DNA of 64,000 nt from Truepera radiovictrix DSM 17093. GTDB taxonomy: Bacteria > Deinococcota > Deinococci > Deinococcales > Trueperaceae. Positions 27,502-29,600 of this stretch are shown one piece after another (position 1 is the first letter of the stretch; each line of letters begins with the position of its first letter). A model generated the notes under the pieces. That model was given only the letters and a program-made list of their open reading frames with translations, searched no databases and was not told the origin of the DNA. The stretch lies in contig NC_014221.1 in assembly GCF_000092425.1 (NCBI RefSeq), positions 2,113,001-2,177,000 on the forward strand, written 5' to 3'. The position numbers and the translations under genes are program-made.

Positions 27502-27624
27502 GCCACATCGCTACCGCCAACGTCAGCGAAACGTGAGCGGCCGGGCGCGCCGCTAAGGGCCGCGGTCTCTTGGCGCCGCGCTAGCACCGTCGCGCCAGGC
27601 TAGGCGGCTAGGGCCAGCGTGCGC

Positions 27625-27893
27625 TATACTAGCTGCACGGTCATGGTGAGGCGAACTGTTGGCAACGTTTGAGGCGCGCGCATGAGTGACCCGGCCGGGT
27701 GCAGCTCTCCAAGCGCCCCCGAGGTGCGGCGCTGAACGCCAAACGCCCACACGCGTGCCCTTCGCACGCCCTATCCCTTGCACACAACCTAACCACGCCC
27801 CGCGTCGCACCCCGCTGCACGCGCTCGCCCCTATGCACCCCTTGGGCGCCCGCGCCGAGGTAGGGGGCACCCTTACACGCTGAGGAGGACCCG
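27625..27893 (+). promoter_or_regulatory. hflX promoter and long 5' leader
   Basis: TATACT at 27625-27630 is a consensus-like -10, although no -35 is recognisable. If used, the hflX leader would be about 255 bases, long for this genome. It contains a CCCGGCCGGG palindrome (near 27691-27700) and a C-rich stretch, and ends in TGAGGAGG. No known riboswitch core was recognised. Confidence 0.45.
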
Positions 27894-29600
27894 ATCAACA
27901 AAGTTCACGGTAAACTCTCCGGTTTAAAAACCTCGCAGGTCAAACGCCTCTCCAACCTCTACCGGCGCCGCCTGGACCCGAGCGCCGTCGTCTCACAGGA
28001 GTTGGCTCGAGCCCTCGGCGAGCTGTCGCTGGAGTTTCACAAACCCGTCTCGGTGCTCGTCGACCGGCGCGGGCGCGTCGTCACGGTGGCGCTCGGCGAC
28101 GCTGCCGACACGCCGCTCCCCGCACGGCCCGGCGAGGCCGAGGGGCGGCTTTACGGGTTGCGGCTCGTGCACACCCACCTCAAAGGGGGTGGCCTGTCGC
28201 AGGGCGACCTCTCGAAGCTGTTTTTAAACCGCCTCGACGCCGTGGTCGCCGTCGACGTGCGGGCGAACGCGCGCGGCGACGCCGAGGTGACGCAGGTGCA
28301 CCTCGCGCAGATCGCGCCGCCCCGCGCCGAGGCGGAAGACTGGCTCATCTCGCCCCCTATGAGCATGCAGCGCGCCGAAAAGCTCGACTTTTTGGAGCTC
28401 ACCAGAGCCCTCGAGGAGGAGCTGAGCCGGAGCGCGCGCGCGCGTGAGACGAAGCGTTCGTCGCAAGAGCGCGCCGTCTTGGTCGGCCTCAACACGGGCG
28501 AGAGCCCCTTCGAGAGCGACTCGAGGCTGGCTGAGCTCGCCGAACTCGCCCGCAGCGCGGGTGCGACGGTCGCCGTGATGAGTAAGCAGCAGCGCGCCGC
28601 ACCGGACCCGCGCACGCTGATCGGGCGCGGCAAGCTGCAAGAGCTCGTCTCCAGGGCGTACCACGAGGACGCCGACCTCTTGATCTTCGACCGCGAACTT
28701 AACCCCGCGCAGGCGCGCGAGATCGCCCAGGAGACGCAGCTCAAGGTCGTCGACCGCACCCAGCTCATCTTGGACATCTTCGCGCAGAACGCGCGGGGCC
28801 GCGAGGCGCAGGTGCAGGTCGAACTCGCGCAGCTGCAGTACCAGGTGACGCGCCTCGCCGGCCGCGGGCGCGCCATGAGCCGCCTCGGTGGGGGGATCGG
28901 CACGCGGGGGCCGGGGGAGACGAAGCTCGAGGTCGACCGCCGCCGCATCCGCGACCGCATCGCGGCGCTCCAAGCCGAGGTCGCCCAGATCAGCCAGCGC
29001 CGCGCCGAGGGGCGCAAGGGCCGCAAGGCGTCGGAGGTACCGGTCATCGCCCTGGTCGGCTACACGAACGCGGGCAAATCCACCCTCTTTAACGCGCTCG
29101 CCAAAGCCGACGTGCTGAGCCAAAACCGCCTGTTTGCCACCCTGCGCCCGACGACCCGCGAGGGCTGGCTGCCGGCCTTGGGCGCGTGGGGCGGCAAGGT
29201 GCTCTACACCGACACGGTCGGTTTTATCCGCGACCTGCCCGAGGAGCTCGTCGACGCCTTCCGGGCCACCTTAGAGGAGCTGCACGACGCCGAGCTCTTG
29301 CTCCACGTCGTCGACGCCGCCACCCCCGGCGCACCCGACCGCGTGGCAGCCGTCAACCGCATCTTGGACGACCTCGGCGTCGAGGTGCCGCGCACGGTGG
29401 TGCTGAATAAAGCCGACCTCGCCGCTCCGGCCGAGCTCAAAGACCTCGCCAAGCGCTACAACGCTCTTGGCGTGTCCGCTGCTACCGGCGCTGGACTAGA
29501 CGCGCTCAAAGCGTCGCTGGCGCAGCTTCTGGAGGGGCCGCGCCACGTCCCGCTACCCGACGACCCGGGGCGCGCTTACGGCATGACCTTTCACGACTAG
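27894..29600 (+). CDS. hflX: ribosome-associated GTPase HflX, apparent AUC start
   Basis: HflX (568 residues from 27894) binds and splits ribosomes under stress. The N-terminal HflX domain is followed by a G domain at about 345-560 with G1 GYTNAGKST, G3 DTVGF and G4 NKAD. The usual family N-terminus (V-G-L-K-x-x-Q-x-x-x-L-x-x-L-Y-R-R-R) is encoded between 27894 and 28001, yet no ATG, GTG or TTG exists there after the in-frame stop at 27861. The only start with a ribosome-binding site is ATC at 27894, five bases after GAGGAGG. The TTG at 28002 would delete conserved sequence and has GGAG too close. Confidence 0.9.
   Translation: MNKVHGKLSGLKTSQVKRLSNLYRRRLDPSAVVSQELARALGELSLEFHKPVSVLVDRRGRVVTVALGDAADTPLPARPGEAEGRLYGLRLVHTHLKGGGLSQGDLSKLFLNRLDAVVAVDVRANARGDAEVTQVHLAQIAPPRAEAEDWLISPPMSMQRAEKLDFLELTRALEEELSRSARARETKRSSQERAVLVGLNTGESPFESDSRLAELAELARSAGATVAVMSKQQRAAPDPRTLIGRGKLQELVSRAYHEDADLLIFDRELNPAQAREIAQETQLKVVDRTQLILDIFAQNARGREAQVQVELAQLQYQVTRLAGRGRAMSRLGGGIGTRGPGETKLEVDRRRIRDRIAALQAEVAQISQRRAEGRKGRKASEVPVIALVGYTNAGKSTLFNALAKADVLSQNRLFATLRPTTREGWLPALGAWGGKVLYTDTVGFIRDLPEELVDAFRATLEELHDAELLLHVVDAATPGAPDRVAAVNRILDDLGVEVPRTVVLNKADLAAPAELKDLAKRYNALGVSAATGAGLDALKASLAQLLEGPRHVPLPDDPGRAYGMTFHD

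Follow-up and report, generated by a model that had tools for sequence, protein, structure and literature searches.

An AUC start codon of hflX in Truepera radiovictrix, the conservation of AUH starts in long-form HflX, and a possible dependence on IF3

Introduction

To our knowledge, very few bacterial genes have discriminated start codons, and all of these except infC are restricted to particular clades. IF3 represses AUH and GUC starts, as described for infC and for sigR of Streptomyces (PMC5472188). In S. aureus, AUU and AUA starts give about 10-30% of the expression obtained with AUG (PMC13009471). The HflX protein of E. coli splits 70S ribosomes, and IF3 keeps the subunits apart, preventing their re-association (PMC9067457).

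Here we analyze hflX in a stretch of 64,000 nucleotides of the genome of Truepera radiovictrix DSM 17093 (NC_014221.1, positions 2,113,001 to 2,177,000; hereafter, the window), for which an earlier note, made from the sequence alone, proposed an AUC start and a parallel with infC. The parallel is apt: in the same genome, infC (C1 near 1307700, L233) starts with ATA behind GGAGGTG (GGAGGTGAAGTTCATAGCC), and in other Trueperaceae its start codon is ATT, ATA or ATC. Both genes combine a discriminated, broadly conserved AUH start with a Shine-Dalgarno (SD) sequence, and both products act on the separation of ribosomal subunits; as expected of a gene of the infC type, hflX has a start outside ATG, GTG and TTG, no in-frame alternative, and conservation of the start together with the SD among relatives. 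The two genes differ in that IF3 is itself the discriminating factor for infC (autocontrol), whereas no inspection of start codons is known for HflX; discrimination at hflX would fall to IF3, which would make any control of this gene cross-control. The other described cases are less close. The GUC start of sigR, repressed by IF3, resembles that of hflX as a clade-kept non-canonical start that limits a protein, and one hflX of the Trueperaceae (L031) even has GTC; sigR, however, encodes a sigma factor and is reported as a Streptomyces feature (PMC5472188), whereas the AUH starts of hflX span many phyla. Expression-limiting AUH starts with a compensating extended SD, as proposed for hflX, appear in PMC13009471 for pcnB of E. 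coli (AUU) and for cvfC1, ccpN and citZ of S. aureus (AUU or AUA), but these genes have a narrow phylogenetic range and unrelated functions. The control of hflXr and hflX in Listeria and Bacillales (PMC9067457, PMC8632094) shares with the control proposed here a dependence of HflX production on the state of translation, but it acts through a leader ORF or attenuation and not through the start codon. By analogy, hflX is best described as a gene that would work like an IF3-discriminated one.

The start site of hflX in the window

As the earlier note had stated, the hflX frame contains no ATG, GTG or TTG between the upstream TAG and the TTG at 28002, and the ATC at 27894 follows GAGGAGG with a spacer of five nucleotides, ACCCG (Table 1). 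The codons after the stop read GGG GCA CCC TTA CAC GCT GAG GAG GAC CCG ATC AAC AAA GTT CAC. The TTG at 28002 directly adjoins an AGGAG, with zero spacer, and the frame ends with TAG at 29598-29600. The AUC start that the note had put forward is supported by conservation of the codon in Trueperaceae and far beyond, and we hold the identity of the start codon and the wide conservation of its non-AUG class to be nearly certain.

Table 1. Features of the hflX locus (positions in the window)
Feature	Coordinates	Strand	Basis or remark
In-frame stop TAG	27861-27863	+	11 codons upstream of the ATC start; sequence, translation
Shine-Dalgarno GAGGAGG	27882-27888	+	5-nt spacer to ATC; sequence
ATC start codon of hflX	27894-27896	+	ATH conserved in Trueperaceae and other phyla; coding conservation starts here
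hflX coding sequence, long form, 568 aa and stop	27894-29600	+	TIGR03156; Pfam PF13167, PF16360, PF01926
N-terminal domain of long-form HflX, residues 1-190, probably JAMM/MPN-like	27894-28463	+	AlphaFold2 model; structural matches; H93-x-H95-x7-S102-x2-D105
TTG, first canonical start in frame, rejected as start	28002-28004	+	A start here would lose residues 1-36, conserved and within the folded domain; position not conserved in relatives
HflX N-terminal domain proper (PF13167)	28521-28784	+	Pfam
HflX middle region (PF16360)	28791-29024	+	Pfam
GTPase domain (PF01926)	29046-29411	+	Pfam

The gene is preceded by a divergent intergenic region of 392 bp (27502-27893) that separates it from a minus-strand nicotinate phosphoribosyltransferase-like gene. 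Searches of the region before hflX for a consensus sigma-70 promoter, a terminator and an Rfam element found none, the predicted structure of the start region is not unusual (z 0.79), and the leader yielded neither a conserved structure nor an Rfam family that would support additional regulation of hflX.

The long form of HflX

The product matches TIGR03156 (GTPase HflX) with 430.9 bits (E 3e-129), above the cut-off of 216.75, as well as the three Pfam domains of HflX. We use "long form" for HflX proteins with about 190 additional N-terminal residues, which the solved HflX structures among the PDB matches lack and which no Pfam model covers. AlphaFold2 models residues 1-190 with a mean pLDDT of 93 (93-97 for the first residues), and the top structural matches of this domain are nearly all JAMM/MPN proteins (JAMM1, Rpn11, RadC), with a Z of only 6.4 and a Foldseek E of 1.5e-3. 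The zinc-ligand motif HxH-x7-S-x2-D is present, with H93, H95 and D105 invariant among 46 sequences and S102 taken from the window sequence; among the invariant columns of the same 46-sequence alignment there is no Glu before the HxH. Judging from the model and these matches, the N-terminal domain is probably JAMM/MPN-like.

Conservation of the start codon in Trueperaceae and other Deinococcota

A search of 39 Trueperaceae genomes from 17 genera yielded 36 distinct loci. At the position aligned with 27894, 34-35 of these have ATC, ATT or ATA and one has GTC; the lower count follows from a conservative rule that treats an NTG anywhere from codon -3 to codon +1 as canonical, so that L037, with ATT at the aligned position, is scored as GTG. 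This alignment, which the earlier note had proposed as a check, shows that the ATH class is retained beyond what chance would give (34 of 36 loci under the conservative rule); the ATG that the note had envisaged in relatives, as a sign of an error or mutation in the window, occurs in none of the 36. The typical context is GGAG(G)-N5-8-ATH-GAN-AAG-GTN-CAY-GGN. Pairwise identity by codon phase is about 0.28-0.34 in all phases upstream, reaches 0.94/1.00/0.44 at the start codon and then takes values of 0.72/0.80/0.44 in the next codons; because this coding pattern appears at the aligned ATH and is absent upstream, coding begins at that codon. The third base of the start codon varies like a silent site and is never G. 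The first downstream NTG lies anywhere between codon 3 and codon 61 in the relatives, with no conserved position.

In one Trueperaceae genus (g8; L012, L015, L016, L038, L039), ATC occurs without an SD, and a TANNNT box lies 8-10 nt upstream, as if the hflX mRNA were leaderless with AUC as its first codon, an arrangement that would be very unusual.

Among the other Deinococcota, for which the family names are inferred, the codon is ATC in one sister family and ACG in another (preceded by ATT in three of four). In a Marinithermus-like lineage and its neighbours it is ATT, ATC or ATA, and a stop lies two codons before it; one Marinithermus-like genus, unlike its family neighbours, has ATG. In Thermaceae, hflX starts with ATG, GTG or TTG, in some cases close behind a TATAAT-like box.

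Distribution of AUH starts across bacteria

Long-form loci outside Deinococcota were collected with a profile of the long-form N-terminal region, with loci drawn evenly within two phyla and, for the domain-wide draw, mostly one genome per family. With phylum names partly deduced from the genome at the centre of each draw, ATH was found in 78 of 96 distinct long-form loci of the Desulfobacterota sample and in 33 of 41 of the Acidobacteriota sample; the domain-wide sample has ATH in 31 of 40 stronger matches and in about 5 of the 13 weakest. In Cyanobacteria, a label inferred from sequence, ATH stands at the aligned position in 29 of 30 loci, with an NTG at most three codons upstream in about five. 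A further, Myxococcota-rich set, with ATH in 22 of 79 loci and TTG or ATG in most others, came from a scan with a profile that included, as a probe, a Firmicutes-like consensus; the scan returned mostly Myxococcota, and therefore the phylum-wide and domain-wide samples were also drawn.

An in-frame stop precedes the ATH by no more than two codons in 35 loci, as in aaaggaggaataa followed by ATT in Desulfobacterota, and in 98 loci there is no canonical start from the stop (at most 12 codons upstream) to codon 8 or the conserved N-terminus. Canonical NTG starts in long-form hflX are used by Thermaceae, the Marinithermus-like genus, many Myxococcota, Fusobacterium and several divergent groups; the ATG of Fusobacterium comes with a good SD, which obligatory feedback does not predict. 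Short-form hflX genes (E. coli, Azospirillum, Cytobacillus, Collinsella) start with TTG or ATG. No relatives were found in viral contigs, and among plasmid records only Fusobacterium has most of the long form.

On a FastTree phylogeny of 202 long proteins, the distinction between non-AUG and NTG starts requires 19 changes, compared with a mean of 56 for shuffled labels, and the midpoint root is non-AUG; on the same tree, about 40-41 codon changes stay within ATH, about 11 lead from ATH to ATG, and 3 reverse that step. This distribution favours a non-AUG start as the probable ancestral state of long HflX. Judged from these alignments, the AUH start of long HflX is an ancient bacterial trait, as is that of infC; it is seen in at least five phyla and in most of the sampled groups, although it is not universal, and it suggests that a brake on the amount of HflX arose early and was retained widely. 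A literature search, which was limited to open-access papers and is no proof of novelty, found no report of an unusual hflX start codon.

Start codon class and initiation signals

The class of the start codon is associated with the presence of an SD, as a correlation on related sequences that ignores kinship: an SD 4-mer lies upstream of 193 of 210 ATH starts, as against 11% in shifted controls, and of 23 of 28 TTG starts, whereas only 4 of 57 ATG starts have one, below the 11% null. A TANNNT box at leaderless distance precedes 20 of the 57 ATG starts, compared with 9.7%. Lineages with AUG almost never have an SD, and weak initiation therefore seems to be retained in them by the absence of this signal.

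The gene for the GTPase Der was used as a control. Its start is canonical in all 25 Desulfobacterota loci in which the N-terminus was found (ATG, with TTG once) and in 27 of 28 loci of Trueperaceae (TTG, GTG or ATG); therefore, AUH starts are not a general habit of these genomes. At the same position in Trueperaceae (L418-L447), der nearly always has TTG or GTG, not ATG.

The base before ATH is a pyrimidine, most commonly C, in 161 of 210 loci, with about half expected. U at position -1 helps pairing with the initiator tRNA. In Cyanobacteria (L448-L475), the conserved ATH mostly has no clear SD; CCT is the usual codon at -1, and ACG is frequent at -2 (ACG CCT ATH); with ATH kept in this way, another initiation signal may exist at the hflX start of this phylum.

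Proposed mechanism and alternative explanations

We propose that AUC 27894 would be read by initiator tRNA as fMet, aided by the strong SD, and that HflX synthesis would be held low during ordinary growth because IF3 rejects AUH starts. A shortage of IF3 relative to 30S subunits would raise HflX synthesis, at the very time when the cell would benefit from a factor that splits 70S ribosomes. Taken as a whole, this explanation, which comprises the AUC start, its age as a trait of long HflX and an output limited by IF3, is in our estimate quite likely to be correct. Its most specific part, feedback linked to IF3 as opposed to plain low expression, we hold to be about evenly balanced; the action of IF3 on hflX and the homeostatic purpose are inferred.

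The serious rival is that the AUH start merely sets a constant low level of HflX, under selection for scarcity of a protein that in excess would harm translation, with no IF3 homeostasis; we consider this a real, if somewhat less than even, possibility. There is a precedent in pcnB, cited in PMC13009471, and the rarity of the SD in AUG lineages, even below the null and to be compared with an SD in 13 of 26 Der starts of Desulfobacterota, suggests that weak initiation is conserved rather than AUH per se. However, IF3 discriminates against AUH starts generally, so that some dependence on it is hard to avoid, and the excess of changes within ATH over changes to ATG suggests a preference for the AUH class itself. 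The observations fit plain low expression as well as feedback through IF3.

A canonical start, either TTG 28002 or an upstream codon, with the isoleucine codon as a conserved internal residue or untranslated, appears very improbable. Gene callers restricted to ATG, GTG and TTG would pick 28002, and some relatives have in-frame NTG codons farther upstream, but stops lie 0-2 codons upstream of ATH in 35 loci, codons evolve as coding after ATH and not before it, and the SD is centred on ATH. In addition, residues 4-24 form a strand (4-6) and a helix (13-24) of the confident AlphaFold2 fold, so a start at 28002 would cost folded structure. A sequencing error or local mutation at 27894, which the earlier note had raised, is rejected with virtual certainty by the presence of ATH in many genera and phyla whose genomes were sequenced independently.

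Implications

The IF3-limited start proposed here leads to a broader, tentative view, which we regard as less likely than not: long hflX might be a second pan-bacterial gene governed by IF3, beside infC, in which IF3-sensitive weak initiation is conserved either through AUH with an SD or through AUG with no SD, often leaderless in appearance, so that HflX output would sense the balance of IF3, free 30S subunits and idle 70S ribosomes. The wide occurrence of AUH starts would also mean that HflX is probably mis-annotated in many genomes, shortened by about 20-60 residues, and that gene callers need to allow AUH for this family. The trait yields a prediction that can be tested in tractable bacteria such as cyanobacteria. 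More generally, it would point to a general link between the stringency of initiation and ribosome rescue, through a second such gene that encodes another subunit-separating factor and is found in at least five phyla.
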